NCBI GenBank assembly: GCA_019359715.1
Contig: JAHHGS010000111.1
Span: forward strand, 1-38,174
From: Aphanocapsa sp. GSE-SYN-MK-11-07L
Lineage (GTDB): Bacteria; Cyanobacteriota; Cyanobacteriia; Thermosynechococcales; Thermosynechococcaceae
Length of the DNA stretch: 38,174 nucleotides
Direction of reading: 5' to 3'
Positions within the stretch are counted from its first letter, which is position 1; every line of letters begins with the position of its first letter. Shown piece after piece: positions 4,079-36,475 of this stretch. The translations under genes were made by a program, and so were the position numbers. Under the pieces are notes generated by a model. It did no database searches. It saw only the letters and a program-made list of their open reading frames with translations, and was not told the DNA's origin.

Positions 4079-4097
4079 GTTTCCCTACACACCACGC

Positions 4098-4116
4098 ATT
4101 GAAAATAAATCTCAAT
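4098..4116. promoter_or_regulatory. Fur-like palindrome upstream of receptor 1
   Basis: ATTGA (4098-4102) and TCAAT (4112-4116) form an imperfect A/T-rich palindrome centred about 29 bp before the receptor start codon. It resembles the palindromes at the same place before receptors 3 and 4 (TTAAGAAAT / TCTTAA type). A Fur or AraC operator is inferred from position only. Confidence 0.4.
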
Positions 4117-4155
4117 TAGCGTAGAACAGAAGCGCTTCCAGTCGAAACCCTCAAA

Positions 4156-4198
4156 TGATCACTCGCCAGACTTTTTTTGATCACTCGCCAGACTTTTT
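4156..4198. promoter_or_regulatory. 22-bp-period direct repeat spanning the AraC-1 stop, candidate AraC box
   Basis: The unit TGATCACTCGCCAGACTTTT occurs twice in tandem, starting at 4156 and 4178, with 21 identical bases per copy. The second copy contains the AraC stop codon. Read on the minus strand the units are GTCTGGCGAGTGATC, similar to the GTTTTGGAGTGATG-type repeats in the other three AraC-receptor spacers. Two direct repeats about two helical turns apart are the usual target of an AraC-family dimer. The first unit starts 49 bp from the centre of the palindrome above. Confidence 0.5.
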
Positions 4199-5203
4199 GT
4201 GTTGCTGACGGTAAGCTTTCGGGCTAAAACCAAACTTTTTCCGAAATGCCCTGGCAAAATAGCCCCGATGGGCAAACCCCACCTGTTGCGCTACCTCCTC
4301 AATCCGCAAATCGCCAGTGGTCAAAAGTTGGCGGGCAACTCCCAAGCGATGGTCACTGAGATACTGAAAGACCGTTGTGCCAAACGTTTGCTGAAAGCCT
4401 TCATTGAGAGTGCGCTGATTCAATTGGGCTTTCTGGGCTAGCTCTTTGAGAGTTGGGGGAGCCGCTAACTGATTGATCAGGATATTTTTAGCCCGGTGCA
4501 GACAGTCAACCTCATCGGGGGTGAGCTTGCTGGGAGCAACTTTAGAACCACCATCGACAAAGGGCAGCAGCGCCAGTAGCATTAACTCTTGTGCTTTCGC
4601 TTGCAGATAGATGCGTTTGAACATACCGCTGTAGGGGCACAACAGGATTTGTTGTACGACCTGAAACATCTCAGGAGTGATCACGCGATAGTGAAAAAAC
4701 GGCTTGCGATCGCCCGCCAAAATCTGTTGCAGTTCTCTGGGGAGCTGCTGGCGCTGCTGAGGCGTGTAATCAGCAAAGACTTGGAACGGATTAACACCCA
4801 AATAAAGACGACGAAAAGGTTCCCCTGCCTGCCAGTGCTCAGTTTCCCGAAACTCAGAATGGGAGCAAAAATTGTAGTAGCCAATTGGCTCTTCAATTTC
4901 GTCCGTTAGCCCGTGGATCTGGGTGGTCACTTTTCCCGATAGGCAAAATGTTAAGCCAAATCCTAGATCTGGCTCTTTTTCGCTGGAACCGTTATGCCAC
5001 AAAGCTTCCAGCATTTCCCACTCTTGAATTTCCAGCTCTAACCCCTCCTGAAGCGGCATGTGGCATTGCCAAAGGCGGCCAATATGGGGCAACGTCGCCC
5101 AGTCAATGGCTTCAGTGTCCGTGTCAGCCCAAGCCGCCTGACCCTTCTGTTCGCTCTCTTGCCAGAGTTCATTAACGATAGAATCTGTCAGCTCATAAGG
5201 CAT
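4181..5203 (-). CDS. AraC family transcriptional regulator, PchR-like (module 1)
   Basis: Likely senses an imported siderophore and activates the receptor gene just downstream, as PchR does for pyochelin in Pseudomonas; the inducer here is unknown. The protein has a variable N-terminal sensor half, with the recurring WQAGEPFRRLYLG segment of this group, and a C-terminal double helix-turn-helix over the last 100 residues (LKELAQKAQLNQRTLNEGFQ, then IEEVAQQVGFAHRGYFARAF, KKFGFSPKAYR). An upstream TTG at 5218 would add five residues; the ATG at 5203 is preferred. The C-terminal codons are part of a 22-bp tandem duplication that continues past the stop. A palindrome lies directly upstream. Confidence 0.92.
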   Translation of the reverse strand: MPYELTDSIVNELWQESEQKGQAAWADTDTEAIDWATLPHIGRLWQCHMPLQEGLELEIQEWEMLEALWHNGSSEKEPDLGFGLTFCLSGKVTTQIHGLTDEIEEPIGYYNFCSHSEFRETEHWQAGEPFRRLYLGVNPFQVFADYTPQQRQQLPRELQQILAGDRKPFFHYRVITPEMFQVVQQILLCPYSGMFKRIYLQAKAQELMLLALLPFVDGGSKVAPSKLTPDEVDCLHRAKNILINQLAAPPTLKELAQKAQLNQRTLNEGFQQTFGTTVFQYLSDHRLGVARQLLTTGDLRIEEVAQQVGFAHRGYFARAFRKKFGFSPKAYRQQHKKSGE

Positions 5204-5221
5204 GGTGCTGTAACTCAATCA

Positions 5222-14318: not shown

Positions 14319-14406
14319 AAAGGGGGACTTTGAGGACTCTAGTTTCCTCCGAGGGTTTAGTTTTAACTTCCAGTTTCCTCCTTTTTAAGGGGGGCTAGGG
14401 GGGATC
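14297..14406. repeat. GATCCCCC...GGGGGGATC hairpin repeat, right copy
   Basis: A 110-bp relative of the 13807-13886 repeat. The outer arms are the same. The middle is longer because a segment with AGTTTCCTCC occurs twice. Its left end codes for the end of the DUF559 protein, and its last bases (GATC) supply the TGA stop of receptor 2 on the minus strand. Confidence 0.85.
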
Positions 14407-16954: not shown

Positions 16955-16970
16955 ACCGACACACTCCAGT

Positions 16971-16999
16971 CTCAGTATCAAGAATTATTATCAACTGAG
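16971..16999. promoter_or_regulatory. Fur-like palindromic region upstream of receptor 2
   Basis: CTCAGT (16971-16976) and ACTGAG (16994-16999) enclose ATCAAGAATTATTATCA, which on the minus strand gives TTGATAATAATTCTTGATA, a reasonable match to the Fur core. It lies just upstream of the GTG start chosen for receptor 2; if the TTG at 16981 were used it would overlap the coding sequence, another reason to prefer the GTG. Confidence 0.45.
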
Positions 17000-17006
17000 A
17001 ACAGTA

Positions 17007-17143
17007 GACCTGTTGCTTTATAACGCAAAAAATCGCCGAAACCCTTATCGTCACTAGCTTGCAGCCATTGATCATGAAAATCGCCTGGAATGATTGCTCT
17101 GCTTGGTTTTCATGGCTTTTTGTGGCTTATTAAGCAACAGGTC
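17007..17143. mobile_element. MITE-like element with 12-bp terminal inverted repeats and TA flanks
   Basis: GACCTGTTGCTT (17007-17018) and AAGCAACAGGTC (17132-17143) are perfect inverted repeats at the ends of a 137-bp non-coding segment. TA lies on each side (17005-17006 and 17144-17145), as expected for an IS630/mariner-type TA target duplication. It separates the Fur-like palindrome of receptor 2 from its AraC-type direct repeat. Removing it plus one TA brings the two sites to about 53 bp, close to the 49-50 bp in the other modules. Confidence 0.65.
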
Positions 17144-17177
17144 TAGTAGTCTAGAGATGGAGTGTCTGTCTACGCCT

Positions 17178-17206
17178 AAAACGGACACGATCATTGCAAA
17201 ACGGAC
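17178..17206. promoter_or_regulatory. 20-bp-period direct repeat at the AraC-2 stop, candidate AraC box
   Basis: AAAACGGAC occurs at 17178-17186 and again at 17198-17206, a 20-bp period. On the minus strand this reads GTCCGTTTTGCAATGATCGT then GTCCGTTTTAG, matching the GTTTTGGAGTGATG-type repeats of modules 3 and 4. The second repeat lies within the last codons of AraC-2. Confidence 0.5.
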
Positions 17207-18171
17207 TTTTTGCCTGCCAAACACTCGCGCGGGGTAATGCCAAACTTGCCCTTGAAGGCCTCGGCAAAGCGTGACGAGCGAGCATAGCCGACCAGTCCAG
17301 CCACTTCTGCCACTGTTCGATCAGGTTCCCGCAATAGGCGTTCAGCTTGCTCTAGGCGTTGATCAGTCAAGAAACCAATCACGGTGGTGCCAAAGATATG
17401 TTGGAATCCGCGCCGGAGGGTGCGATCGCTCAGTCCCACCTGCTGCGACAACTCTAAGATAGAAGGTGGATGCTCCAGACTGGCGAGTAAAATATCCTTG
17501 GCCTGATGAATCCGCTCCATCGTCCTCCGTTTAAGACGGGGGTTAGCCAATCGTTCTGGCTCAGTTTGCAGAAGTTCGACTTGTAGGGCCAGCAACTCAA
17601 ACACTTTTGCTTGTAGATAGATCTGCTTCGTCAGACCTTGGTAAGGACAGCTAAAAATCTGCCGCATAATCCGCTGCATTTCAGCCGTAACTTTTTGATC
17701 AGGTCGGCAAAATTGCCAATCGTTGGGTTGAATCAGGACTTGCAGCTCTGGTGGCAGTTGACCAAAATCATCTCCATATAGCGTTTTTAGTAAATCTGGC
17801 TCAAAGCTTGCACTCAGGCTCATGCAGCGTCCACCAGCCAACACTTCTTCTGCTGACTGTAGGGCAATACCGCTGCCAAACAGGGTATATCGACCGTCTT
17901 GCTGGGTACGACAGGCTGGTAGTTCTAGACAAATTTCAACTTCATGTTCTCGTTCAGGATACTTGAAAACGTAGGCGTGACGAGACTCCCAAGTGCTCAG
18001 GAATAGCGTTAATTCATCGCCGCACAGCCCAATGATTTGTAGATGCCCTTGACCCAGCAAGGCAGGCTGCTGACAAGTCTCTTCCCAATAATTGGATGAA
18101 GAGATATTTGTACACTCCCACTCGACAGTACTATATAACTCCAAGTAGTCTGATGGTGTTAGGGTAAGCAT
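17191..18171 (-). CDS. AraC family transcriptional regulator, PchR-like (module 2)
   Basis: A 326-residue regulator with a divergent N-terminal sensor half and a clear C-terminal double helix-turn-helix (ILELSQQVGLSDRTLRRGFQ; VAEVAGLVGYARSSRFAEAF; KGKFGITPREC). It precedes receptor 2 on the same strand, but the spacer is 236 bp, longer than in the other modules because of the MITE-like insert. Two TTATTGAGAA-type repeats stand directly before the ATG. Siderophore sensing is inferred from family and neighbour. Confidence 0.92.
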   Translation of the reverse strand: MLTLTPSDYLELYSTVEWECTNISSSNYWEETCQQPALLGQGHLQIIGLCGDELTLFLSTWESRHAYVFKYPEREHEVEICLELPACRTQQDGRYTLFGSGIALQSAEEVLAGGRCMSLSASFEPDLLKTLYGDDFGQLPPELQVLIQPNDWQFCRPDQKVTAEMQRIMRQIFSCPYQGLTKQIYLQAKVFELLALQVELLQTEPERLANPRLKRRTMERIHQAKDILLASLEHPPSILELSQQVGLSDRTLRRGFQHIFGTTVIGFLTDQRLEQAERLLREPDRTVAEVAGLVGYARSSRFAEAFKGKFGITPRECLAGKKSVLQ

Positions 18172-18209: not shown

Positions 18210-18255
18210 ATTTATAAAACTAAATTTTTTGAAATCTTTGGCGATCGCTAGGTTT

Positions 18256-18360
18256 AGCGATCGCCGCGCTCCTGTTTATCGCAAAATTATGGTTGCAGTA
18301 CCAGCCCTGGCAGTCTGTTTACTATTTGCCACGTTAGTCTTGACTGCTGCCCCTCAATAG
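18256..18360 (+). pseudogene. Orphan 3' end of a cpcL (membrane rod-linker) gene
   Basis: These 34 codons plus stop encode SDRRAPVYRKIMVAVPALAV followed by CLLFATLVLTAAPQ, nearly the same as the C-terminal membrane helix of the intact CpcL at 35625-36335. The linker domain is missing upstream; the sequence before it is AraC promoter DNA. It is a scar of a lost cpcL copy, joined to iron module 2. DNA identity extends a few bases past the stop (TAGTT-GCTGT). Confidence 0.88.
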
Positions 18361-18424
18361 TTTGCTGTCTACCGGCTTATCCCCTTCCGCTATACTACAA
18401 ACAGTCTTGCTGGAGAGTCCTGCA

Positions 18425-21263: not shown

Positions 21264-23825
21264 TTAAAACGTCCAACCAATCGAACCCGTAATGGTAAAC
21301 GGTGCACCTCGCTGAATAAAGCTTCCACCAAAGGCATAGCTGCCATAGTCGATGTCAAACAGATTACGAATATTAATCGCTGCGTTAAACCCATCACGAC
21401 GGTAGTAAAGGGCTGCATCGGTTCTTAGGTAACTCTGTAGTTCAGCCGAATTTGCTAAATCGACCTGTCTTTCGCCAACATAGAACAGTCCTAAACCAAA
21501 CCCAAAGCCTCTCAGATTGCCTTTTTGAATTTCGTAGGTTGTCCAGAGACTGGCTTGATTAAAGGGCACGTTATCTAATCGGTTGCCAACCGGAGTTACG
21601 TTATCTTTGGTAACTTCGGCATCGGTATAGGCATAGGAAAGAATGATTTTCCAACCAGGTAAAAGCTGTCCTGCAGCATCTAGCTCAATCCCTTGGCTCC
21701 TGACTTCTCCAGTTTGAATCGAAAACGTAGGATTATTGGGGTCGGGTGTAATCACATTTGTTTTGATAATGTGATAAGCGGCGAGAGTTGCTGAAAGCAT
21801 ACGGTCTAACAAATCTGCTTTCACGCCCAATTCATATTGAGTTCCCTTCGTGGGTTCAAATACTCCCCCATCTGGATTAACACTGAATCCGCTACTCGGC
21901 TTGAAAGAAGTGCTGTAGCTTGCATAGAAAGAGAGCATGTCGTTGGGCTGATACACTAAGCCAACGCGGGGGCTAAAGGCTCCGTCGTTGATTACTGGCT
22001 CATCAAAATCATTGTCTTGTCTTTCTAAATCATTGTTTGTCCAATCATAACGTCCGCCAATCAGTAGCTTCAAATTCCTGATTAAGGTAATTTGATTTTG
22101 GAGGTAAATCCCATAATTTTTATTAAATTGAGTATAGCTAAAACCTGGTAGATATTCAGGTCTGGGGATATCATAATTCGGGTTAAAAATATCTAAATCA
22201 GCAGGGACTGTGGCACTAAAAGCTCGATAATCAAATTCAAAGTAATTAATATCAAGGCCTGCTAGAAGCTGGTGAGAAATCGATCCAGTCTTAAACTTTC
22301 CAAGTAGGTCAATTTGCCCAGAGTAGCTGTTTGCCCACTCACTAGATTCCTCAGCAAATAGGTCTGTTAGAATGCGATCGTCAACAAGTGTGGTGAAATA
22401 ATTTCGGTTCAGAGTCCTTTGATTCAGAAGAACAGCAAGATTACTACGAACCTGCAAGTTTTCACTAAATCGGTGATTTAAGTTAAAGCCAATTCGATTG
22501 GTTGTAATATCCTGTAAGGCTAAACTGGGATAGGCGGGGTAAAAGTTTCGAGGAGGTAAGCTGCCATCGCTCAATAGCGGAACTTCAAAATTTGGATTAT
22601 CTGCAAAATATCTTACATACTCATAGGATAAATTCAGGTCTGTTCGATCTCCTAGCTTCAGAGTAATTGAGGGTGCAATCGCGGTGGTGCCAGAACCAAC
22701 AAAATCTTGATAGCTTCCGGCACTTCGATAGGTGGCAATAAATCTGTAGAGAACGTTGCGATCTGCGGTTAATGGCCCAGAAAAGTCAATGCTAGGCTGA
22801 TAGAAACTATAATTTCCTACTTGAAATTCAACATTGTAATAGGGGTTACTGAGAGGCTTTTTGGTAATAGTGTTAATCACTCCACCCGGTTCTTGAGCAC
22901 CGAACAGAACCGATGCAGGCCCCTTTAGCACTTCTATTTGCTCGACTGTCTTGATCGACGATACGGAATAGTAGTCATAATCTCGAAAGCCGTTCCGCAG
23001 ATTTCCTCCTGTAATTTCACCAATATTGAATCCTCTGATAATGAAGGTTCCACCGGGTGCGCCATAGCTGTTTGAACCATCAAGCACACCACTAACCGTT
23101 TCCACTGCCTCGGTGACAGTTCTGACATTGCGATCGCGGATCACCTGTTGCGGCACGATCTGAATCGAAGCAGGAATATCGCGGATTGGGGTATCGGTTT
23201 TGGTGGCAGTGGACGTATCGGGCACAAAATAACGTCCTTCTCCTTCACCTGTGACGACAAGTTCTTCTTCGGCTGCTTCATCCTCTGGGTTAAGGCTGTA
23301 GGCAAAGGCTCCGGTTTTAAGCGTCACTTCCTGTTTGGGTAGGGCATCTTTTCCGGTCACACTCACCCGAATGCTGCTGGCATCCTGTTGCACGACTTGC
23401 ACGTTGGCAATTTCTGCGGTTGGGTTTTCTGCCGTAAAAGCTTGGCCCTCTGGTAGCGCTAGCACGGCGTTGGGAATATCGGCAATTAGGCTGTTACCTT
23501 CGGTTCTAAACTTGGTCGCATCAACTGCCAGCGGTTTACCGTCTGGGGTATCGAAGATAATTTCTAGCCCGGCTGGGGTGGGATTCAGCTTAACGGCGGT
23601 TACTTGCTGAGTCGCTGCTTCAATCTGAGCCATCCACTCCTTAACTGAGGTGGCAGAACGGGGCAGGTCGCCAACATTAAGAACCGGGGCAGGCTTCGTC
23701 GCTGTTGCATCTCCTTCTGCCCGTCCCGGCTGCACCAACAGAACCGAGACTACCCCAGCGTTGACGAAGGTTGTGCAAAGTACAATTGTCCAGACTCGAA
23801 CTCTCGACGATTTCCAAAGGCTCAT
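21264..23825 (-). CDS. TonB-dependent siderophore receptor with AMIN domain (module 3)
   Basis: Outer-membrane ferric-siderophore receptor of 853 residues. Signal peptide about 1-36 (ends QPGRA), AMIN domain about 75-170, acidic EEELVVTG segment, plug with RDIPASIQIVPQQVIRDRNV, VEQIEVLKGPASVLFG and GGVINT, then barrel ending GSIGWTF. GGAG lies 7 bases before the ATG. It is a close paralogue of receptor 4; the AMIN and plug regions are almost the same, while the outer barrel loops differ, which suggests a different siderophore. IS1 lies directly after its stop. Confidence 0.95.
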   Translation of the reverse strand: MSLWKSSRVRVWTIVLCTTFVNAGVVSVLLVQPGRAEGDATATKPAPVLNVGDLPRSATSVKEWMAQIEAATQQVTAVKLNPTPAGLEIIFDTPDGKPLAVDATKFRTEGNSLIADIPNAVLALPEGQAFTAENPTAEIANVQVVQQDASSIRVSVTGKDALPKQEVTLKTGAFAYSLNPEDEAAEEELVVTGEGEGRYFVPDTSTATKTDTPIRDIPASIQIVPQQVIRDRNVRTVTEAVETVSGVLDGSNSYGAPGGTFIIRGFNIGEITGGNLRNGFRDYDYYSVSSIKTVEQIEVLKGPASVLFGAQEPGGVINTITKKPLSNPYYNVEFQVGNYSFYQPSIDFSGPLTADRNVLYRFIATYRSAGSYQDFVGSGTTAIAPSITLKLGDRTDLNLSYEYVRYFADNPNFEVPLLSDGSLPPRNFYPAYPSLALQDITTNRIGFNLNHRFSENLQVRSNLAVLLNQRTLNRNYFTTLVDDRILTDLFAEESSEWANSYSGQIDLLGKFKTGSISHQLLAGLDINYFEFDYRAFSATVPADLDIFNPNYDIPRPEYLPGFSYTQFNKNYGIYLQNQITLIRNLKLLIGGRYDWTNNDLERQDNDFDEPVINDGAFSPRVGLVYQPNDMLSFYASYSTSFKPSSGFSVNPDGGVFEPTKGTQYELGVKADLLDRMLSATLAAYHIIKTNVITPDPNNPTFSIQTGEVRSQGIELDAAGQLLPGWKIILSYAYTDAEVTKDNVTPVGNRLDNVPFNQASLWTTYEIQKGNLRGFGFGLGLFYVGERQVDLANSAELQSYLRTDAALYYRRDGFNAAINIRNLFDIDYGSYAFGGSFIQRGAPFTITGSIGWTF

Positions 23826-23850
23826 CTAATTTCTCCACTCACCACTATAA

Positions 23851-23873
23851 TTATTAAGAAATTCTCTTAATAA
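23851..23873. promoter_or_regulatory. Perfect 9-bp-arm palindrome upstream of receptor 3
   Basis: TTATTAAGA (23851-23859) and TCTTAATAA (23865-23873) around AATTC. The same 23 bases occur at 29266-29288 before receptor 4. Centre about 37 bp before the start codon. Related cores lie before AraC-1 and AraC-2. Fur is the likely binder, as iron repression of receptors is the rule in cyanobacteria, but this is inferred. Confidence 0.65.
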
Positions 23874-23911
23874 GCTGGAATGAGTTTAGAGAAAGGGCAG
23901 TCACGGCTGCA

Positions 23912-23942
23912 ACTCCAAAACCGCACCGTCACTCCGAAACCG
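23912..23942. promoter_or_regulatory. 19-bp-period direct repeat, candidate AraC-3 box
   Basis: ACTCCAAAACCG (23912-23923) and ACTCCGAAACCG (23931-23942), period 19. It lies between the AraC-3 stop and the palindrome, starting 50 bp from the palindrome centre. The matching repeat in module 4 is at the same distance. Confidence 0.55.
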
Positions 23943-23951
23943 AAATTTTGC

Positions 23952-24935
23952 CTACTTTTTGCCTTGGGCGCACTCGCTGGGGGTAATGCCAAACTTGCGC
24001 TTAAAGGCGGCTGCAAATTTAGCTGGGTTCGCGTAGCCCACCAAATTGGCAATTTCTGCGACGGTTCGGTTGGTTTCGCGCAACTGTTCAGCCGCCCAAC
24101 TCATTCGTTGTTCAGTTAAATAGTCAAAGGGGGTTGTCCCAAACAGGGCCCGAAAGCCTTTTTGCAGGGTGCGATCGCTTAGCCCCACCTGCTGGGCCAA
24201 CTCTAGGGTGGAGGGAGGATTTTCCAACTGCAACTCCAAGCGGTCGCGGGCGGCATAAATTTGGGCGATCGTCAGCGGTTTCATCCCGGTTGGGGAGTTG
24301 GGTTTACCCTGATCAGCAATGATTGGGGCTAGCATCAGGGCCATCAGTTCATGGCTTTTAGCTTGGAGAAAAAACCGCTTTGCCGCCCCACTGTAGGGAC
24401 AGCCAATGATTTCGTGGGCGACCCGTTGGATGGCGGCAGTCGTTTTCGGGTACATCAGCGTTTGCCGATCGTTCCCTTTGACTAAAAACTTCAGTTCGGC
24501 GGGCAATTCTCCATTCACATCGGAGAACAGGGTCGTAAATCGCGCTGGTGACATTTCTAGGTTGATATGGAGGTGGGGCTGCGCACTGGAGCAGATGTAG
24601 GAATTCTGGCGTTGTACCCCACTGCCAGAAATAATTGTGCGTGAATTGTCCAGCCCACCACATTGGCTATCAAGACTTATCCCAGATAGGGTTACTCCCA
24701 ACTGAACCGGATGGTTCCATTCCGGCTGCTGAATTTGCAGGTCTTCTCGAAAAGTATAGCTACCGATTTTGAGTTCAAAATCGGGATACAGGTTAACGTC
24801 AAAGTCATAACCACTGCCCATCAGCGAAGGCATCGGATTGAGTTCACTGCCAACCTCTGGGTCAATCCGTGACATTTGCCGGGCAGCTTCATCCCATAGT
24901 TCTGCATCTTCTTGCACGGTCAAGGTTATGGTCAT
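23952..24935 (-). CDS. AraC family transcriptional regulator, PchR-like (module 3)
   Basis: A 327-residue regulator, close paralogue of AraC-4 over its whole length. The N-terminal half is a sensor (LYPDFELKIGSYTFREDLQI; SPARFTTLFSDVNGELPAEL). The C-terminal half has two helix-turn-helix units (TLELAQQVGLSDRTLQKGFR; VAEIANLVGYANPAKFAAAF; KRKFGITPSEC). It precedes receptor 3 by 126 bp on the same strand. Siderophore-dependent activation is inferred. Confidence 0.93.
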   Translation of the reverse strand: MTITLTVQEDAELWDEAARQMSRIDPEVGSELNPMPSLMGSGYDFDVNLYPDFELKIGSYTFREDLQIQQPEWNHPVQLGVTLSGISLDSQCGGLDNSRTIISGSGVQRQNSYICSSAQPHLHINLEMSPARFTTLFSDVNGELPAELKFLVKGNDRQTLMYPKTTAAIQRVAHEIIGCPYSGAAKRFFLQAKSHELMALMLAPIIADQGKPNSPTGMKPLTIAQIYAARDRLELQLENPPSTLELAQQVGLSDRTLQKGFRALFGTTPFDYLTEQRMSWAAEQLRETNRTVAEIANLVGYANPAKFAAAFKRKFGITPSECAQGKK

Positions 24936-26624: not shown

Positions 26625-29243
26625 CTAAAACTCCCAACTGATCGAGCCAACGATCGTAAATGGCTCGGTTCTTTGCACAAACGTTTTGCTGAGAGCAAAT
26701 GCAGCGGTGTCTATATCAAATATATTGCGGAAGTTGAGTGCTAACCGTAAGCGATCGCGACGATAGAAAAGCGCTGCATCGGTTCGCAGGTAATCTTTGA
26801 GTTGAAACGAGTTATCCAAATCACCCTGTCGCTCACCCAGATAAAACAGTCCTAAGCCAACCCCAAACCCTTTGATCCAAGACTTTTGGAACTCATAGGT
26901 TGTCCAAAGGCTAAACTGATTCTCTGGTACATTCGGTAATCGATTGCCGACCTCAAACGTATTATCCTCCGTCAGTCTGGCATTTGTATAGGAGTAGGAA
27001 CCGATCACTCTCCAACCGGGTAAAATTTCACCAGCAATATCGAACTCAACCCCTCGACTGCGTTGCTCTCCAGTTTGAATTGAACGGGTAGGGTCAGCCG
27101 GATCGGGGGTGAGTACATTAGTCTTCGTAAGCTGATAGGCAGCTAAGGTGGCTGAAAGCTTGCCGTCGAGCAAGTCAGCCTTTACACCCACTTCGTATTG
27201 AATGCCTCTCGACGGTTCAAATGTAAGATCGGCATCTGGACTCAGGTTATCAAATCCAGAGAGGGGGAAGAAAGACCGAGTGTAGCTGGCATAGAGAGAA
27301 ACTTCTTTACTGGGCTGATAGACCAAACCAACACGAGGACTGAAAGCCCCATCATTCCGTGTGGGAAAGCGAATCACATCTCCCCCTGTAACGGTATCCG
27401 CTGCAAACTCAGTGGTCGTCCAATCATAGCGACCGCCGATTAGGAATTTTAAGTTATCATTGAATGTAATTTGATCCTGGATATAGATCCCGTAGGATTG
27501 CCTGACAAAATCAAAGATAGAAAATGTGCCCCGTGTGGAATAGGTGGGTGTTGGAATATCATAGTTGGGGTTGCGGATATCTAAAGGCGGGAGAGGCGTA
27601 TCAGCATTGAGTCCATTATCGCTGGCATTGGTATTGCGGTTGATATCCAAACCGACTAAGAACTGATGGTCGAGCGCTCCAGTCTTGAATTTACCCAGTA
27701 AATCTATTTGCCCAAAATAATTGTTTCTGACAAAGACGGCTCTGCTAGTATCGAATCCTTCTAAAAATTGATCATCAACGACGGTAAAACCTGTGGCTAC
27801 ATTCTCTGCGAAGCGACTCAGGACAATCGCCAAATTATTCCGCAACTGCCAGTTATTACTAAACTTATGGCTGAAGATGTAACCAAATTTTTGAGTTGAA
27901 AAATCAATCTGGCTTAAGCTAGGGTAGTAAGTCGCAAAGTCGCGGGGTGTCAAGCTTCCATCGCTGAGAAACACAGCATTGGTTAGCCCAGAAGCAGGAT
28001 AGCCGGAAATGCGACTAAACTCATAGTACAAGTCCAGATTAGTCCGTTCTCCCAACTTGAGCGAAATGGAAGGGGCAATCGTTGTTAGGCCTCGCTCGGC
28101 AAAGCCTTGAAAGTCGCTTGAGCCTTGATAGCTGGCAATAAAACGATAAAGCACGGTTTTATCCGCATTTAAGGGGCCTGATACATCCAGACTGGGCTGA
28201 TATAGTCCAAAATTTCCCACTTCAAATGCGAGTTGATAGAAGGGTTCACTCAGGGGTTGCTTGGTGACGACATTGACAATTCCACCGGGTTCTCCTGCTC
28301 CAAATAGCACGGAGGCAGGCCCTTTCAGCACTTCAACTTGTTCAATTGTTGCTGGCGGAGTCACGGTGTAGAAGTCACCATCGGGAAACCCATTGCGGAA
28401 GTTGACAACGCCTGTCCCCGCTTGATCAAACCCCCGAATGATCTTGAGTGTAAGCGGTGTACCACCATAAGGTCTATTGCCGGGAACAACACCGCTGACC
28501 GTTTCCAGTGCTTCTGTTACGGTTCTGACGTTGCGATCTTTTAAGACCTGTTGCGGCACAATCTGAATTGAAGCCGGAATATCGCGGATCGGGGTGTCGG
28601 TTTTGGTGGCGGTAGAAGTGTCGGGGATGAAGTAGCGTCCTTCGTTTTCCCCTGTGACGACAAGCTCCTCTTCGGCTGCTTCGTCCTCTGGGTTGAGGGT
28701 ATAGGTAAAGGCTCCGGTTTTGAGGGTCACTTCCTGCTTTGGCAGGGCATCTTTCCCGGTTACACTGACCCAAATGCTGCTGGCATCCTGTTGCACTACC
28801 CGTACTGTGGCAATTTCTTCAGTCGGACTCTCTGCTGTAAAAGCTTGCCCCTCTGGTAGTGCCAGTACAGCATTGGGAATGTCAGCAATCAGGCTAATCC
28901 CTTCGGCTCTAAACTTAGTTGCATCAATAGCTAAGGGCTTCCCCTCTGGCGTATCTAAAACAATTTCCAGTCCTGCTTCAGTTCGATTTAGCGTTACGCC
29001 TGTCACTTGCACGGTTGCGGCTTCGACCTGTGCTATCCACTCTTGCACCGTCGTTGCAGACTTCGGCAAATCATCAATCTGAGGGATTTCGGTCTGATCA
29101 TCCACTACCTGGGCATCCACCGTGGTCTGTTCAGGGAGAGTGAGGGAGGATTGCACCTCTGCCCATCCCGGTTGCACTGATAAAACTGAAACCACTCCTG
29201 CGATCGCCCATACTCCAAGTCTCAACGACTTCAAACTCTTCAT
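26625..29243 (-). CDS. TonB-dependent siderophore receptor with AMIN domain (module 4)
   Basis: Outer-membrane ferric-siderophore receptor of 872 residues (875 if a GTG at 29252 is used). Signal peptide ends near QPGWAEV; AMIN domain about 85-185; acidic EEELVVTG; plug with RDIPASIQIVPQQVLKDRNV, VEQVEVLKGPASVLFGAGEP and GGIVNVV; barrel ending GSISWEF. It is the paralogue of receptor 3, with different outer loops. Upstream are AraC-4 and the same palindrome and direct repeat; downstream is the lipoprotein gene in the same operon. Confidence 0.95.
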   Translation of the reverse strand: MKSLKSLRLGVWAIAGVVSVLSVQPGWAEVQSSLTLPEQTTVDAQVVDDQTEIPQIDDLPKSATTVQEWIAQVEAATVQVTGVTLNRTEAGLEIVLDTPEGKPLAIDATKFRAEGISLIADIPNAVLALPEGQAFTAESPTEEIATVRVVQQDASSIWVSVTGKDALPKQEVTLKTGAFTYTLNPEDEAAEEELVVTGENEGRYFIPDTSTATKTDTPIRDIPASIQIVPQQVLKDRNVRTVTEALETVSGVVPGNRPYGGTPLTLKIIRGFDQAGTGVVNFRNGFPDGDFYTVTPPATIEQVEVLKGPASVLFGAGEPGGIVNVVTKQPLSEPFYQLAFEVGNFGLYQPSLDVSGPLNADKTVLYRFIASYQGSSDFQGFAERGLTTIAPSISLKLGERTNLDLYYEFSRISGYPASGLTNAVFLSDGSLTPRDFATYYPSLSQIDFSTQKFGYIFSHKFSNNWQLRNNLAIVLSRFAENVATGFTVVDDQFLEGFDTSRAVFVRNNYFGQIDLLGKFKTGALDHQFLVGLDINRNTNASDNGLNADTPLPPLDIRNPNYDIPTPTYSTRGTFSIFDFVRQSYGIYIQDQITFNDNLKFLIGGRYDWTTTEFAADTVTGGDVIRFPTRNDGAFSPRVGLVYQPSKEVSLYASYTRSFFPLSGFDNLSPDADLTFEPSRGIQYEVGVKADLLDGKLSATLAAYQLTKTNVLTPDPADPTRSIQTGEQRSRGVEFDIAGEILPGWRVIGSYSYTNARLTEDNTFEVGNRLPNVPENQFSLWTTYEFQKSWIKGFGVGLGLFYLGERQGDLDNSFQLKDYLRTDAALFYRRDRLRLALNFRNIFDIDTAAFALSKTFVQRTEPFTIVGSISWEF

Positions 29244-29265
29244 TGATTTCACTCACTCACTGAAT

Positions 29266-29288
29266 TTATTAAGAAATTCTCTTAATAA
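29266..29288. promoter_or_regulatory. Perfect 9-bp-arm palindrome upstream of receptor 4
   Basis: TTATTAAGA (29266-29274) and TCTTAATAA (29280-29288) around AATTC, identical to the site before receptor 3. The flanking GCTGGAATGAG-TTAGAGAAA is conserved too, so the whole control region was duplicated with the module. Confidence 0.65.
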
Positions 29289-29326
29289 GCTGGAATGAGC
29301 TTAGAGAAATGGGAGTCGCCGCTGCA

Positions 29327-29357
29327 ACTCCAAAACGGCACCATCACTCCAAAACTG
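29327..29357. promoter_or_regulatory. 19-bp-period direct repeat at the AraC-4 stop, candidate AraC box
   Basis: ACTCCAAAACGG (29327-29338) and ACTCCAAAACTG (29346-29357), period 19, starting 50 bp from the palindrome centre as in module 3. The second repeat overlaps the last codons of AraC-4. On the minus strand it reads GTTTTGGAGTGATGG then CGTTTTGGAGTT. Confidence 0.55.
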
Positions 29358-30351
29358 GAACTTTACTCAGTTTTTTTCTATTCATGCAGTCGCTCGGCGA
29401 AATGCCAACCGTGCGCTTAAACGCCGCCGCAAACTTCGCGGGGTTGCCATAGCCGGCCCGATTCGCAATTTCTGCCACCGTTTGGTTGGTGTCTCGCAAC
29501 TGTTGGGCTGCCCAACTCATCCGCTGGTCGGTCAAATATTCAAACACGGTTGTCCCGAACAGCAATCGAAATCCTCTGCGGAGGGTGCGATCGCTTAACC
29601 CGACCTGCTCTGCCAACTCCAGGGTGGACGGGGGATTTTCCAATTGCAATCGCAAACTGTCGCGGGCGGCATAAACTTGAGAGATCGTCAGGGGTTTCAT
29701 GCCGGTTGGGAGGGGTGGCTTGCCTCGATCAGCGACAATGGGTGCCAGGATCAGCGCCATCAGCTCGTGACTTTTGGCCTGGAGAAACAACCGTTTTGAT
29801 GCTTTCTCATAAGGACAGCTAATGATTTCGTGAGCAACCCGTTGAATCGCGGGAGATGTTTTGGGACAAAGCATTGTGCGCCAATCGTTCCCTTGTACCA
29901 GGAAATTCAATTCAGCAGGCAGTTCTCCGTGTTGATTAGCGAAAAGAGTCGTAAATCGCTCTGGCGACATCTCCAGGTTGACGCTGAGGTGGGGCTGGGC
30001 ACTAGAGCAGATGGAAGAATTCCCGCGCTGCACACCGCTGCCAGCAACAAAAGTGCGTGTATTATTTACCACACCGAATTGGCTATCTAGAAACATTCCA
30101 GAGACGAACACCCCAACCTCAACTGGATTATGCAGTTCCAGGTGCTTAATTTGCAGATCCTCTCGATAGGCATGGCTGGATATTTTGAGCCAGCAATCGG
30201 GATAAAGATCCACATGAAAGTCATAGCCCTTGCCCAGTATCTGAGGCATGGCAATTAGCTCACTACCAACCACCGGGTCAATCTGCGCTGTCTGCTGGGC
30301 AGATTCATCCCAAAGATCTTGATCTTCCCGCGAAGTTAAGGTTATGGTCAT
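29344..30351 (-). CDS. AraC family transcriptional regulator, PchR-like (module 4)
   Basis: A 335-residue regulator closely related to AraC-3 (both start MTITLT). Sensor half with SPERFTTLFANQHGELPAEL; double helix-turn-helix with TLELAEQVGLSDRTLRRGFR, VAEIANRAGYGNPAKFAAAF and KRTVGISPSDC. An upstream in-frame start at 30396 would overlap the methyltransferase gene; the ATG at 30351 matches AraC-3. It lies 25 bp after the methyltransferase stop and 100 bp before receptor 4, so methyltransferase, regulator, receptor and lipoprotein may be one transcription unit. Confidence 0.92.
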   Translation of the reverse strand: MTITLTSREDQDLWDESAQQTAQIDPVVGSELIAMPQILGKGYDFHVDLYPDCWLKISSHAYREDLQIKHLELHNPVEVGVFVSGMFLDSQFGVVNNTRTFVAGSGVQRGNSSICSSAQPHLSVNLEMSPERFTTLFANQHGELPAELNFLVQGNDWRTMLCPKTSPAIQRVAHEIISCPYEKASKRLFLQAKSHELMALILAPIVADRGKPPLPTGMKPLTISQVYAARDSLRLQLENPPSTLELAEQVGLSDRTLRRGFRLLFGTTVFEYLTDQRMSWAAQQLRDTNQTVAEIANRAGYGNPAKFAAAFKRTVGISPSDCMNRKKLSKVPVLE

Positions 30352-30376
30352 AACAACAATCGGTTTGACTCCATCG

Positions 30377-31408
30377 CTATACTTTTTGCCCGGCAACTAC
30401 GAGTACCAACTGTTGCTGGGCAGACCGCAGATGGGTAAAGCCTGTCTGGGTTAGCCACTCTAGGACAGTAGATTGCGGCCAGGTGCGTCCACCGCAGGTA
30501 ACGTAGTAGATCAAAGAAAACAAGCTCATAGGCGCAGACAGCTTGCCGCGATCGCCGGGATGAAACAGGTCGTTAATCAAGATAGTGCCGCCGGGGCGCA
30601 GCGCTTGCCAGGACTTTTGCAGGGCGATTTGACACTGCTCAGCCTGCAAGCAATGCAAAATATTGGAGAGGAAAACCAGGTCGTAATCCGTGCCCCAGTC
30701 GGTATCCAACAGGTTGCCTTCAATGTAGGAAATGCGATCGCTCAAGCCCGCTTCCGCAATTTTGGGCATTCCGACTTGAGCAGCATTCGGCAAGTCCAAA
30801 ATACTAGCCTTGAGGCCAGGATAGCTGCGGCAAAAGGCAATGCTGTATTCTGCTGGCCCGCCTGCCACATCTAACATTCGCTTAGGAGCAGGGTTAAGTT
30901 TGGCCCATTTGATCACTTGCGGCGCTCGCTGCTGACCGCTGCTTTCAAGCATCGTGTAGTAATTGGCAGCGCAGGTAGATGACTGCGGGTCGAAGTGAAA
31001 ATTAGGGACTTGCCCCGTCCGAATATCCTCCTCTAGGAGCGCCATTTGGCTGCTAATGTCGCCCCCTAAACGCAAAAAGTCGTGAACCAAACCGCCTGCT
31101 TTGGTAAGGTGCTGTGCAGAAACGGCAGTCAGCCGGTACTGGTTGCCTTGGCGCTGGATAAAGCCAAACCCGTCCAGGCTTTCTAACAATACCTGCATAC
31201 CGTGGGCATCGTAGTTCATGGCGGTGGCTAAATCTGCTGCGGTTTGAGGCTGCTGGTTGAGCGCATCAAAAATGCCTAGCCGGACGGCGGTCACTACAAC
31301 TTGGCTGACCCCCATGCCCAGCATCGCCAGCAAAAATGGCTGCAACTCTTTGCGAGTCTGGAGGGCGATCGCTTCTAAGGGATTTTCTGGTTTGACCGTC
31401 AGGCGCAT
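30377..31408 (-). CDS. SAM-dependent O-methyltransferase (dimerising, plant OMT-like type)
   Basis: Class of acetylserotonin/caffeate-type O-methyltransferases found in secondary metabolism. The N-terminal winged-helix dimerisation part lies at about 30-105 (TAVRLGIFDALNQQPQTAAD). The SAM-binding motif LDVAGGPAEYS lies at about 179-189, then ILDLPNAAQVG and DLVFLSNILHCL. GGAG lies 7 bases before the ATG at 31408; a start at 31435 is less likely. The substrate is unknown. Its place at the head of iron module 4 raises the chance that it acts on a siderophore or signal, but no siderophore synthesis gene is nearby. It is divergent from the antenna operon. Confidence 0.88.
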   Translation of the reverse strand: MRLTVKPENPLEAIALQTRKELQPFLLAMLGMGVSQVVVTAVRLGIFDALNQQPQTAADLATAMNYDAHGMQVLLESLDGFGFIQRQGNQYRLTAVSAQHLTKAGGLVHDFLRLGGDISSQMALLEEDIRTGQVPNFHFDPQSSTCAANYYTMLESSGQQRAPQVIKWAKLNPAPKRMLDVAGGPAEYSIAFCRSYPGLKASILDLPNAAQVGMPKIAEAGLSDRISYIEGNLLDTDWGTDYDLVFLSNILHCLQAEQCQIALQKSWQALRPGGTILINDLFHPGDRGKLSAPMSLFSLIYYVTCGGRTWPQSTVLEWLTQTGFTHLRSAQQQLVLVVAGQKV

Positions 31409-31757
31409 GGATTTTCTCCTGTAGGTTGTCAGCAAGCAGAAAATTGTTTATGACATTCTTATCAACAAAGAGAGCAAAATCATTAGTTTATTGCACAAAT
31501 CATAGCTATATGCCACTATGTTGAGCGCTAAAACTCCTGTAAAAAGAGATTTTTAAGAGGTTTTAGCAAAACTTAATCTATATTTTAATGCTAAAGACTT
31601 GCAAAAAGATCAGAAAATATTGTTTGCTTTTATTGAGTTTAATTCTCAACTTTGCCGCTTCAGTTGCTGCGCCTTTGCTGCATCGGTCGTAATCCATTTC
31701 AGCCAGAGCAGGTTGACTGTGACCCACTCTGAATCAACTTAGGAGACTGCACAACGA
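31409..31757. promoter_or_regulatory. Divergent control region between the methyltransferase and the antenna operon
   Basis: About 350 A/T-rich bases with no gene seen. It must hold promoters in both directions. TTGATAAGAATGTCATAAAC on the minus strand (about 31450-31470) is a loose Fur-like match, and AAGAGATTTTTAAGAGG near 31544 is a short direct repeat. I could not find a copy of the module direct repeat here. GGAG lies 14 bases before the first antenna ATG. Confidence 0.4.
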
Positions 31758-32846
31758 ATGACTACTTCGCTTTTTTGGACTCCCGTTTTTCGAGCCTTGG
31801 GTTGGGTTTCTAACTCAGGCAATCAGGAATCGGGAGCGCCATTGTTAGCCGGAAATAGCCGCTTTACCGATCTCTCAGGACGGCTTTTAGGTGCCCACGT
31901 TGCCCATGCGGGGCTGATTGTGCTGTGGGCCGGTGCAATGACTCTGTTTGAACTGTCTCGATTCGATCCAACCCTGCCGATGTATGGGCAAAATCTGATT
32001 CTGCTGCCCCACTTAGCCACGCTGGGAATTGGGATTGGAGATGACGGCAATGTTGTCGATACCTATCCTTATCTGGCGATCGGGATGGTGCATCTGGTCA
32101 GCTCTGCCATTTTGGGGGCTGGTGGCATCTATCATGCTGTTTTAGGCCCAGAACAGCTAGATCTGCGCTCCTTTGGCTACAAGTGGCAAGACGGCAAAAA
32201 AATGACCAGTATTCTAGGAATTCATCTGGTTATGTTGGGGATTGGAGCAATGTTACTGGTGCTGAAAGCAACTCAATTTGGGGGGATATATGACCCTATG
32301 GTTGAGCAAGTTAGGCTGGTCACGCCGAATTTGAATCCAGCCGCGATTTTTGGCTATTTGCTTGGGTTTGGCCCGAACGGTTGGACGATCACCGGCATGG
32401 CCAGCGTCAATAACCTAGAAGACATCGTTGGCGGGCATGTTTGGGTTGGGTTTCTGTGCATTGCTGGCGGCATTTTTCACATTGCCTCTCAGCCCCTAGC
32501 TTGGGCAAAGCGAGCCTTGGTTTGGTCAGGCGAAGCCTACCTGTCATACAGTTTGGGCGCTTTAGCGCTGGCTGGGTTCAGTGTGGCCTGCTTTGTTTCG
32601 GTCAATGATATTGCCTATCCGAGTGTTTTTTACGGGCCGATCAGTGGCTTGCCATCAGTCCGCCCAGCTTTAGCCAGCGTTCATGCGGGTTTAGGGTTTT
32701 TGGCTTTGGTGGGGCATATCTGGCACGCCTATCGATCGCGCGCTCAGGAGCGGCATGGGTTAGCCCATGGCACTTTCTTTGACTTTATGGCGGCCAATGT
32801 TTCAGCCCAGCCTGCCATTGCTCATCCGATCAAGTCCAGCGGCTAG
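31758..32846 (+). CDS. IsiA/Pcb (CP43-like) chlorophyll a antenna protein, first of three
   Basis: A 362-residue thylakoid protein of the CP43-like antenna group with six membrane helices. Chlorophyll-binding His lie in [48 protein letters not shown] and GHIWHAY. The large lumenal loop that CP43 carries between helices 5 and 6 is missing, as in IsiA and Pcb. Middle parts ([31 protein letters not shown]) are nearer CP43/Pcb than classical IsiA. It opens a four-gene operon. Such proteins ring photosystem I as extra antenna under iron shortage; induction here is inferred. Confidence 0.92.
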
Positions 32847-32931
32847 AACAACGGACAAAGGCTAGGAGTAAATACCAGCCTTGATTTCAACTACAAAATT
32901 TTCGGCTCTGCGCCATGGAGATGACATCACT

Positions 32932-33960
32932 ATGACAATTGCTCAATCGACTGAACAAATTCCTTGGCGGGCAGGCAATGCCCGTTTGGTTAACCTATCG
33001 GGTCAGCTTTTGGGGGCCCACGTTGCCCATGCAGGCTTAATTGTGCTGTGGGCTGGGGCAATGACTCTGTTTGAACTGTCTCGGTTTGACCCAACTCTAC
33101 CGATGTATGAGCAAGGCTTAATTCTATTACCCAACCTAGCCCGTTTAGGGCTGGGAGTCGGAGCTGGCGGAACGATTGTCGATACCTCTCCTTACTTTGC
33201 GATCGGGGTGATTCATCTGATTAGCTCGGCATTTTTGGGCGCAGGGGGACTTTTTCATGTCTTTAAGGGGCCGGGCAAACTAGAAAACGCTTCTACTTTC
33301 TTTGGCTATCGCTGGGACGATCCAAACAAAATGACCACGATTATTGGCATTCATCTAATGCTGCTAGGGGCTGGAGCCTTGCTGTTGGTCGCCAAGGCGA
33401 TGGCATTTGGCGGACTTTACGATCCCGTTGTCCAAGATGTACGGCTCGTCACCAGTCCAAACTTGAATCCAGGCGACATTTTTGGCTACTTGGTGGGCAC
33501 GGGCGGCAAGTTCTGGCTAGCCAGTGTCAATAGCTTGGAAGACATCGTCGGTGGTCACATTTATGTTGCTGCTTTGTGCGCGATCGGCGGTGTTTGGCAT
33601 TTGCTAACTCAACCTTTCAAGTGGGCGAAGCGATTGTTCGTCTGGTCGGGTGAAGCCTATTTGTCCTACAGCATTGGGGCTGTTAGTCTGATGGCCTTTA
33701 TTGCGACCCTGTTTGTCTCGGTGAATGCGATCGCCTTTCCACCGGAGTTCTTTGGCCCAACCTTGCTCTTAAAGTTCGATCGCTTTCCCTATTTTGCTAG
33801 CCCAGATGGGGTACTGACCTGCCGCGTCTGGCTGGCCAATACCCACTTCTGGCTCGGCTTCTTTTTCTTGCAGGGACATTTATTCCACGCCTTACGGGCA
33901 GCCGGCTATAGCTTCGTTGAAGGCAAAATGGTCGCTTTCCCGCGCGGACAGGTCAGTTAG
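32932..33960 (+). CDS. IsiA/Pcb (CP43-like) chlorophyll a antenna protein, second of three
   Basis: A 342-residue protein, the usual IsiA length, with six helices and the same His pattern ([62 protein letters not shown]). The ATG at 32932 with GGAG 11 bases before it is preferred over a TTG at 32881. Its C-terminal part (RAWLAN-type [20 protein letters not shown]) is the most IsiA-like of the three. It starts 85 bp after the first antenna gene and ends 21 bp before the third. Confidence 0.92.
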
Positions 33961-33981
33961 ACACACCTTGGAGGCATAAGC

Positions 33982-35544
33982 ATGACTGCAACAACTGTTG
34001 GGGTGGCAGCCCCCCCTGATTTGCCAACGAATGACTCGATGACAGCGGCTTACGTTGCTGATTCGATGCATCCCTATTCCTGGTGGGCAGGCAATTTTCG
34101 GTTTGTCGATTTGTCTGGGAAGCTGTTGGGAGCGCACATCGCCCATGCGGGGCTGATTGTGCTGTGGGCCGGGGCGATGACTCTGTTTGAGCTGTCTCGG
34201 TTTGACCCCAGCCTACCCATGCCCAGTCAGGGCTTGATTTTGCTGCCCCATCTAGCCACGCTGGGCTTGGGGGTGGGGGCAGGTGGACAAATTATGAGTA
34301 CCGATGCTTACTTTGCGATCGGGATGTTGCACCTGGTTAGCTCTGCTGTCTTGGGGGCAGGCGGCATTTACCATGCAGTGCTGGGGCCTGCCAAGCTAGA
34401 CGAAAAAGGCTTTGGCTACAACTGGCAAGATGGCAACAAAATGACCACTATTTTGGGCATTCATCTCGTGCTCTTGGGCATCGGTGCCCTGCTTTTGGTG
34501 GTGAAAGCGACCTTAGCCGGTGGACTTTACGATTCGGTTACGGCTGATGTTCGCCTGGTCTCCCATCCCACCCTCAATCCGCTGGTGATCTTTGGCTATC
34601 TGGTAGGGTTTGGCCCCAATGGCTGGACGCTGCAAGGAATGGCCAGCGTCAATAATCTCGAAGATGTGGTGGGCGGACATCTGTGGATTGGGGGGATTTG
34701 TATTTTGGGGGGAATTTGGCATATCTTGACCCGGCCAACCGCCTGGGCCCAGCGATCGCTGCTCTGGTCGGGGGAAGCCTATCTTTCCTACAGTCAGGCT
34801 GCCCTGGCCTACATGGGCTTTTTTGCCGCTTACTTTGTCACCGTTAACGACACAGTTTATCCCAGCGTATTCTACGGGCCAGTTGGCACTCCCACGGTCG
34901 ATGGGGTAATTACCCCGCGCACTTGGCTGGGTTTATTTCATATCGTGGTTGCCGCCTTACTCTTGGCGGGTCATTTTTGGCATGCTCTCCGGGCTAGGGC
35001 AAAAGCCGCAGGCTTCGTCTTTAGCACGATGAAATTCAACTCAAATGCCCTGTTTGGAGAGGTTCAATTTGCCGGGGAACCGCTGTTTGAGGGGATTGTC
35101 CAACCCTTGAAGGGCAATCCGCAGTTGGGCGGATTAGCGACACCCATTAATAACAGTGACCTTGTGCTGAGTTGGATCAAAAACTTGCCGATTTATCGCG
35201 ATCGCTTGTCGGCGATCGCCAGAGGCTTAGAAATCGGAATGGCGCACGGCTACTTGCTACTGGGGCCGTTTCTCAAGCTTGGCCCCCTCCGCAACACGGA
35301 TCAGGCTCTCTGGGCTGGCGCAGCCTCAGCGGGCGGCTTAGTGATTATTCTCAGTCTTTGTTTATTTGTTTACGGCGCGGCTGTGTTTGAGGGCAGGCGT
35401 AAACCCGTGGGCGAGTTACCCAGCAATCTGCAAACCCCTCAAGATTGGAGCTTATTTACCAGCGGCTTCTTGATTGGCGGGCTTGGAGGTGTGATCTTTG
35501 CCAGCTTTATTCTCTTAGAAATCAATCGAGCTGGCATTGTTTAG
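33982..35544 (+). CDS. IsiA/Pcb antenna protein fused to a PsaL domain
   Basis: A 520-residue fusion. Residues about 1-345 are a six-helix CP43-like antenna protein with conserved His. Residues about 365-520 are PsaL, the photosystem I subunit that holds trimers together: [60 protein letters not shown], then two hydrophobic helices. PsaL-fused antennas are known in several cyanobacteria (Anabaena and Leptolyngbya IsiA families). The PsaL part could replace normal PsaL in PSI and anchor antenna to it. GGAGG lies 7 bases before the ATG. A hairpin follows the stop. Confidence 0.93.
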
Positions 35545-35551
35545 CCACGCC

Positions 35552-35583
35552 GCAGAAGAGTAGATATGTCCCTACTCTTCTGC
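35552..35583 (+). terminator. 12-bp perfect hairpin between antenna-PsaL and cpcL
   Basis: GCAGAAGAGTAG (35552-35563) and CTACTCTTCTGC (35572-35583) pair perfectly around an 8-base loop, then TTTCTTC. It lies just after the fusion gene stop and 41 bp before cpcL. With its weak T-run it may let part of transcription continue and so set a lower cpcL dose, or protect the upstream RNA end. Confidence 0.7.
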
Positions 35584-35624
35584 TTTCTTCACTTTTACAA
35601 CCTACTTTTATGGAGGCATGACTG

Positions 35625-36335
35625 ATGCTACCTGCTTTGAGTTACTCCTTGACGAGCCAAGCCCAGCGGGTTAACGGCTACGAGATTCCGGGGGATGAAC
35701 AACCCAGAATTTACACCACCGACAACCTGCCAGAAGGTTCGGAAATTGAGCAGATTATTTGGTCGGCCTATCGGCAAGTTTTTAATGAACAGCAGATATT
35801 AGAAAGCACCCGCCAAATCGGTTTAGAGTCTCAGCTCAGGGGGGGTCAAATCACCGTCCGGGAATTTGTCGGTAACTTGGCAATGTCCGATTCATTTCGA
35901 CGCTTAAACTATGACTCCAATACGAATTACCGATTTGTGGAGATGTGCATTCAACGCTTGCTGGGTCGGCAAGTGTACAGTAACCGAGAAGTTTTCGCCT
36001 GGTCGATTTTGCTGGCAACCAAGGGCTTAACCGAGTTTATTAATACGCTGATCAGCAGCGATGAATACCTGAATCAATTCGGTAACAATACCGTGCCCTA
36101 CCAACGGCGACGTATTTTGCCAGCTCAGGCCCAAGGGGAGTTGCCCTTTGCCCGGATGGCCCGCTATGACAGCTATCATCTTAGCCAAGTCAATCAACTC
36201 AACCGTTGGCAGCCCCTGAGCTATGGCGTTAGCGATCGCAGTGCCCCGGTTTACCGCAAAGTTTTGGTAGCAGTACCAGTCTTAGCTGTAGGTTTGCTAT
36301 TTGCCACGTTGGTATTGACTGCCGCCCCTCAATAG
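35625..36335 (+). CDS. cpcL: CpcL (CpcG2) membrane-anchored phycobilisome rod linker
   Basis: A 236-residue linker. The PBS linker domain fills about 20-165 (EIEQIIWSAYRQVFNEQQIL; RGGQITVREFVGNLAMSDSF; NYRFVEMCIQRLLGRQVYSN). The C-terminal 25 residues are a membrane helix (VLVAVPVLAVGLLFATLVL), the mark of CpcL as opposed to CpcG1. CpcL attaches phycocyanin rods without a core to photosystem I. GGAGG lies 8 bases before the ATG. Last gene of the antenna operon, so chlorophyll and phycobilin antennas for PSI seem to be made together. Its 3' end is duplicated as a scar at 18256-18360. Confidence 0.93.
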   Translation: MLPALSYSLTSQAQRVNGYEIPGDEQPRIYTTDNLPEGSEIEQIIWSAYRQVFNEQQILESTRQIGLESQLRGGQITVREFVGNLAMSDSFRRLNYDSNTNYRFVEMCIQRLLGRQVYSNREVFAWSILLATKGLTEFINTLISSDEYLNQFGNNTVPYQRRRILPAQAQGELPFARMARYDSYHLSQVNQLNRWQPLSYGVSDRSAPVYRKVLVAVPVLAVGLLFATLVLTAAPQ

Positions 36336-36475
36336 TTGGCTGTTGCATTCGCATTTTTGCACTCATTAGTGGGGCGATCGCGCTTCGGTTGCTCAAGCTA
36401 GACACCCTGGAAATAGGATGTTGGTAGCAGTGGTTCACCTGTCGTACACTGACTCAAGTTGATGGATGGCAGTGT

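Follow-up and report, generated by a model that had tools for sequence, protein, structure and literature searches.

A photosystem I antenna gene set of the isiA2-isiA3-isiA4-cpcG2 type, loosely accompanied by AraC/TonB siderophore-uptake modules, in Aphanocapsa sp. GSE-SYN-MK-11-07L

Clusters of the order isiA2-isiA3-isiA4-cpcG2 have been described in Trichodesmium IMS101 and, with an additional isiA5, in Leptolyngbya JSC-1 (PMC12090762). In Trichodesmium, the three isiA-like genes show the largest iron response of the transcriptome, more than 300-fold (PMC12090762). The PsaL-like domain of Anabaena IsiA2 replaces PsaL, which results in a photosystem I (PSI) monomer carrying six IsiA (PMC9938196); PsaL-hybrid proteins of such type were earlier named chlorophyll-binding protein type V (CBPV) (PMC3610870). 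In Synechocystis, AraC regulators encoded beside TonB receptors, such as IutR, are iron activators (PMC11221513). Here we analyzed a 38,174-nucleotide contig (JAHHGS010000111.1; G000:C111) from the 5.1-Mb draft genome of the cyanobacterium Aphanocapsa sp. GSE-SYN-MK-11-07L, hereafter the window, which carries a four-gene antenna set of this kind near several AraC/TonB-receptor pairs. Because the window is the entire contig, no island boundary is visible. From its sequence and that of its relatives, we consider it highly probable that the set is an iron-starvation PSI antenna of known type, and that the AraC/TonB modules came to lie nearby by loose gathering and not as part of one conserved island.

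ORF calling placed the four genes on the + strand at 31758-32846, 32881-33960, 33982-35544 and 35625-36335. For gene 2, the ATG at 32932 is a more likely start than 32881 because the starts of orthologues (e.g., in L046) align there, and with this start the intergenic gaps are 85, 21 and 80 bp. Gene 1 encodes an IsiA/Pcb-family chlorophyll antenna protein of 362 amino acids in the isiA2-type position (Pfam PSII, E 2.7e-68; TIGR03041, 359.8 bits), and gene 2 encodes a second member of the family in the isiA3-type position (Pfam PSII, E 3.8e-71; TIGR03041, 419.7 bits). The product of gene 3 is a 520-amino-acid IsiA-PsaL fusion (IsiA4, or CBPV), and gene 4 encodes a 236-amino-acid phycobilisome rod linker of the CpcL (CpcG2) type that carries a membrane helix at its C-terminus. 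All of genes 1 to 3 score above the 335-bit cut-off of TIGR03041, the IsiA/Pcb-type subfamily, and under the psbC cut-off. The four identities are those given in the original prediction; they are borne out by the Pfam, NCBIfam and PDB matches, which are well above chance, and the four-gene set is confirmed as described.

In the fusion protein, the Pfam PSII model (PSII/CP43 family) matches residues 32-302 (E 5.3e-69) and is covered only for approximately the first 270 of its 500 positions, while PsaL (PF02605) matches residues 373-513 (E 4.2e-53). By the Pfam match and the TIGR03041 and psbC cut-offs, the antenna half is a CP43-like six-helix domain without the large lumenal loop. The best PDB match is chain 1 of 7y3f, Anabaena IsiA2 (E 4.7e-181), in an alignment that spans both domains, including the C-terminal PsaL domain. 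In an alignment of 20 fusions, the protein is 58-77% identical to the others, and its C-terminus is 6-8 residues shorter than those of the three PsaL proteins encoded in the same genome. It had been proposed that the PsaL-fused member could dock the antenna on PSI, and both the identity to other fusions and the match to Anabaena IsiA2, which occupies the PsaL site, support this. By analogy, we infer that the fusion would replace PsaL in PSI and keep PSI monomeric.

A search of GTDB genomes yielded 80 named PsaL-fusion loci, of which 29 (L043-L071) are referred to here as clade I. In a quick tree of the fusions, the window and 28 clade I loci (L066 was left out) form a 29-row clade at support 100. 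Clade I includes Trichodesmium, Okeania, Calothrix, Leptolyngbya and Petrachloros, and nearly all of its 29 loci carry isiA-isiA-fusion-CpcL in this order on one strand; the exceptions are L051, which has no CpcL match, and L069, which ends at a contig edge. The same four-gene arrangement is seen directly at the locus of a Trichodesmium erythraeum metagenome-assembled genome (MAG; L043). The other fusion clade is mostly isiA-fusion without CpcL. Thus the operon-like order noted earlier is shared across the clade, and the caution that the parts were already known was justified by the published isiA2-isiA3-isiA4-cpcG2 clusters and by Anabaena IsiA2. Judged by gene content, order and strand, the operon is a member of this known type. 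Three genes recur near the operon in clade I: one for flavodoxin, no more than 7 kb away in 7 loci; one for an alpha/beta hydrolase, in 8 loci; and one for a small cysteine-containing membrane protein, in 10 loci (e.g., L046 12091-12729 and L071 7421-7798). The methyltransferase and DUF2887 neighbors of the window are not conserved across the clade I loci.

Of the 28 other genomes in the window's GTDB family, two carry a fusion. One, from genome G400, is 55% identical; the other, from Petrachloros mirabilis (G398 and G421, which share identical TonB coordinates), is of clade I type, and no clade I holder besides it and the window's own genome was found in the family. The window and Petrachloros sit on long branches at the poorly supported base of the quick tree, which favors neither transfer nor loss. 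A plasmid search for the fusion found nothing beyond a psbC-like gene carried by a Fischerella plasmid and thus gave no sign of plasmid carriage. These comparisons place another member of the GTDB family of Petrachloros among the organisms that carry the PSI-monomer antenna set, and indicate that the variants with CpcL form a clade of their own, kept in cyanobacteria that are only distantly related.

The CpcL protein matches Pfam PBS_linker_poly (E 4.2e-46) and aligns over residues 2-227, nearly its full length, with Synechocystis CpcL (PDB 8hfq_n; E 3.3e-72). Its tail is a hydrophobic segment that is kept in orthologues, so that a CpcG-type linker domain is followed at the C-terminus by a membrane helix where a core-binding tail would otherwise stand. 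Between the fusion and CpcL genes, a perfect 12-bp hairpin followed by the T-rich TTTCTTCACTTTT (35552..35583, + strand) is a candidate terminator, attenuator or 3'-end stabilizer. The 80-nt gap folds at -24.5 kcal/mol, and hairpins of 8-17 bp are present in the corresponding gap of L046, L050, L061 and L063. In the Trichodesmium and Okeania loci, this gap is mostly longer than 1 kb by rough start calls.

To the left of the operon, between 1.5 and 30.4 kb, lie four AraC/TonB-receptor pairs on the - strand. In each, an AraC-family gene stands beside a TonB-dependent siderophore receptor, which is the PchR/IutR-TonB module arrangement, and the receptors score above the TIGR01783 cut-off (223.5 bits). 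Numbered from the left, AraC1 (4181-5218) and receptor 1 (1523-4078) make up the pair at 1523..5218; AraC2 (17191-18171) and receptor 2 (14405-16981) the pair at 14405..18171; and AraC3 (23952-24935) and receptor 3 (21264-23825) the pair at 21264..24935, which is 71% identical in nucleotides over 2.4 kb to 28019-30351. Nearest to the operon are AraC4 (29344..30396; HTH_18, E 4.5e-24), in the PchR/IutR-type position, and receptor 4 (26625..29252; TIGR01783, 358 bits), which has an AMIN domain. The original prediction described the operon as directly joined to siderophore modules. The adjacency holds, but a 322-bp intergenic region, a divergent O-methyltransferase-family gene (30377..31435, - strand; BchU-like but below the cut-off, and for which none of the 80 loci yielded a relative) and AraC4 intervene before the receptor, which is approximately 2.5 kb off.

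We then asked how often such neighbors occur, with the expected TonB proximity computed from the TonB count and size of each genome over the fetched span (~10 kb). A TonB receptor was found near the fusion in 10 of the 80 loci compared with 1.26 expected (8-fold), and none was found within ~10 kb in the other 70. For clade I alone the count was 3 of 29 against 0.48 expected (P 0.01, an optimistic value given the relatedness among the species). Among GTDB genomes drawn separately, some of them of the same species, the fusion lay within 10 kb of a receptor in two loci (G368 and G289). The layouts differ: AraC/TonB modules flank the operon on both sides in a Halomicronema MAG (L062) and lie near it in Vasconcelosia (L071), and in LEGE 07170 (L046) a TonB receptor is located downstream. 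A search of the papers available for this analysis found no report of isiA-PsaL/TonB linkage. Because receptors near fusion loci exceed expectation, the linkage is not pure chance, and a loose, recurrent co-localization in varied layouts looks real. However, it is missing in most holders, and joint inheritance of the operon and siderophore uptake, as had been suggested, is therefore not a general rule; a synteny comparison in related genomes, also called for at the outset, found the order of the operon kept and the TonB neighborhood mostly absent.

A palindromic, Fur-box-like site, TTGAGTTTAATTCTCAA, at 31633..31649 matches 14 of 16 positions of TTGAGAATNATTCTCAA and ends 108 bp before the operon. 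This consensus was derived after the site at 31633 had been viewed, so the score of the site itself is no test; the orthologous loci and the other sites in the window are. Against shuffles, the consensus reached P≤0.01 upstream of the operon in 9 of 26 orthologous loci, several of which belong to close relatives. In 15 of the 26, the site ranked third or higher within its locus of 13-21 kb, where ~1.3 would be expected by length, although AT-richer upstream regions inflate this number. The next-best sites of the TTGAG-N7-CTCAA type in the window are at 4099 (receptor 1/AraC1 gap), 16978 (start of receptor 2), 5227 (before AraC1) and 18174 (before AraC2). The published Anabaena FurA consensus has good matches upstream of AraC3 and between receptor 4 and AraC4. 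The antenna operon is thus probably under iron regulation, with the palindrome as a candidate Fur box. Matches to the IsrR antisense RNA (RF01419) on the - strand at 32184-34600, in all three isiA-like genes, were rejected as coding conservation because psbC also matches, and better (L004, 165.9 bits).

Taken together, a drop in iron would cause a Fur-type repressor to leave the 31633 palindrome, and the antenna set would be transcribed. Both IsiA proteins, and likewise the IsiA portion of the fusion, would then bind chlorophyll a, as IsiA-family antenna proteins do. The PsaL half of the fusion, if it behaves like its Anabaena homologue, would occupy the PsaL site of PSI, keep PSI monomeric and seat the IsiA proteins. 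CpcL links phycocyanin rods to PSI through its membrane helix, and here it could bring such rods to the same PSI. The neighboring PchR/IutR-type AraC/TonB units would serve siderophore uptake, probably under the same iron signal, and would have come to lie near the operon as iron-starvation genes gathered loosely in a rearranging region. Several observations weigh against this reading. Eleven of the 26 orthologous loci have no high-ranking palindrome, a scan with the Escherichia coli Fur consensus gave no signal, and the published Anabaena FurA consensus matched at the operon at only 12 of 19 positions (P 0.86); the predicted iron response is kept as the probable reading by way of the upstream palindrome. 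In addition, the hairpin at 35552-35583 could separate CpcL from the other three genes, and given this hairpin and the long gaps in Trichodesmium and Okeania, CpcL may be made separately or in smaller amounts. The proposed four-gene operon thus stands as a gene order, while its reading as a single simple transcript is weakened.

The region also contains debris. At 18254..18368 (+ strand) lies what is left of a second CpcL gene, the last 36 codons with membrane helix and stop, 83.5% identical to 36229-36343; it begins at a GCGATCGC site just upstream of the divergent AraC2. This remnant suggests that another CpcL gene, or a second antenna operon, formerly lay there. A TonB receptor remnant at 10636-12060 matches only the barrel, lacks a plug domain, and adjoins a PepSY membrane protein. 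An IS1-type fragment is present at 20484-20891, and an 840-bp direct repeat (99% identical; 570-1409 and 9750-10589) lies at Uma2-type genes. Uma2, PDDEXK and DUF2887 genes are present in the stretch, with two tandem DUF2887/DUF4351 genes at the right end of the contig. The broken receptor, the IS1-type fragment and the repeats point to a rearranging stretch.

There are at least two other ways to explain the neighborhood. It could be the chance outcome of a TonB-rich genome and a rearranging accessory region, which is possible but somewhat unlikely. The genome has 35 TonB matches in 5.1 Mb, and the truncated receptor, IS1-type fragment, 840-bp repeat and Uma2/PDDEXK/DUF2887 genes fit such a history. 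At mean density only 0.18 receptors would be expected in the span, but several of the receptors are clustered, and a receptor cluster beside any given gene is therefore not rare. What chance in this one genome does not account for is the excess of receptors near fusion loci across species and the palindromes of similar type that precede some AraC/TonB genes. Alternatively, the operon and the siderophore-uptake modules could be one co-inherited iron island. The 8-fold excess, the modules or receptors near the operon in L062, L071 and L046, and the CpcL remnant beside another AraC/TonB pair in the same relative orientation would agree with this, yet the side, distance and strand vary each time, no TonB receptor was detected within ~10 kb in 26 of the 29 clade I loci, the nearest neighbors are not conserved, and the operon of Petrachloros, of the same GTDB family, is on a contig without TonB matches. 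A fixed island is thus quite improbable, and shared regulation accounts better for the co-localization. A fuller version, in which fusion operons and AraC/TonB modules repeatedly meet across families as a co-regulated iron-starvation neighborhood that here once included a second antenna operon, with its CpcL tail surviving, is in our estimate unlikely.

The antenna genes could also serve in light quality or in a general antenna role and not in the iron response. Under white light Chro_2988, the fusion homologue of Chroococcidiopsis thermalis, is abundant, and its level under far-red light is ~80-fold lower (PMC8827656); contig C81 of the Aphanocapsa genome (L006, L013) carries psbD-psbC-psbB-like genes a second time, in a set like those of far-red-light (FaRLiP) clusters. 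Against such a role, the orthologous Trichodesmium and JSC-1 clusters are strongly iron-regulated (PMC12090762), and the palindromic site and the flavodoxin neighbors in relatives argue for iron, which makes it very improbable. For the iron-starvation antenna set with loosely gathered modules, the receptor excess and the partly shared palindrome together provide a testable case of one iron regulator acting on both uptake and PSI remodeling.

Compared with known systems, the fusion is most like IsiA2 of Anabaena sp. PCC 7120 in the PSI-monomer-IsiA supercomplex (7y3f), also an IsiA with a PsaL-like domain and a near full-length match, although the fusion here has ~20 extra residues between the domains, and the Nostoc-type fusions belong to the other clade, in which CpcL is mostly not in the cluster. 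The CBPV proteins (IsiA/PsbC-PsaL hybrids; Nodularia Nsp37500) have the same domain architecture and are likewise clustered with other isiA-like genes (PMC3610870); the Nodularia cluster contains a flavodoxin and a hydrolase, whereas here the canonical isiA, followed by flavodoxin, is elsewhere (contig C22, L005). CpcL shares its rod-linker domain and C-terminal membrane segment with Synechocystis CpcL (CpcG2; 8hfq chain n), but its gene lies in an iron-type antenna cluster, and contig C93 of the genome (L124) encodes another CpcL-like linker that likewise has a membrane segment at its C-terminus. As in the AraC (PchR/IutR)-TonB modules of Synechocystis (PMC11221513), AraC precedes the receptor and runs in the same direction, but here several pairs and one broken receptor occur within a single 30-kb stretch. 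The closest counterparts of the whole set are Tery_2483-2486 of T. erythraeum IMS101 and the Leptolyngbya JSC-1 cluster, with the same four genes, order and strand, a PsaL-fused third gene and CpcG2/CpcL as the fourth. The JSC-1 cluster continues with an isiA5 after cpcG2 that is absent here, the Trichodesmium loci have a longer gap between fusion and CpcL, and in contrast to both, the copy in the window is adjoined by AraC/TonB modules.

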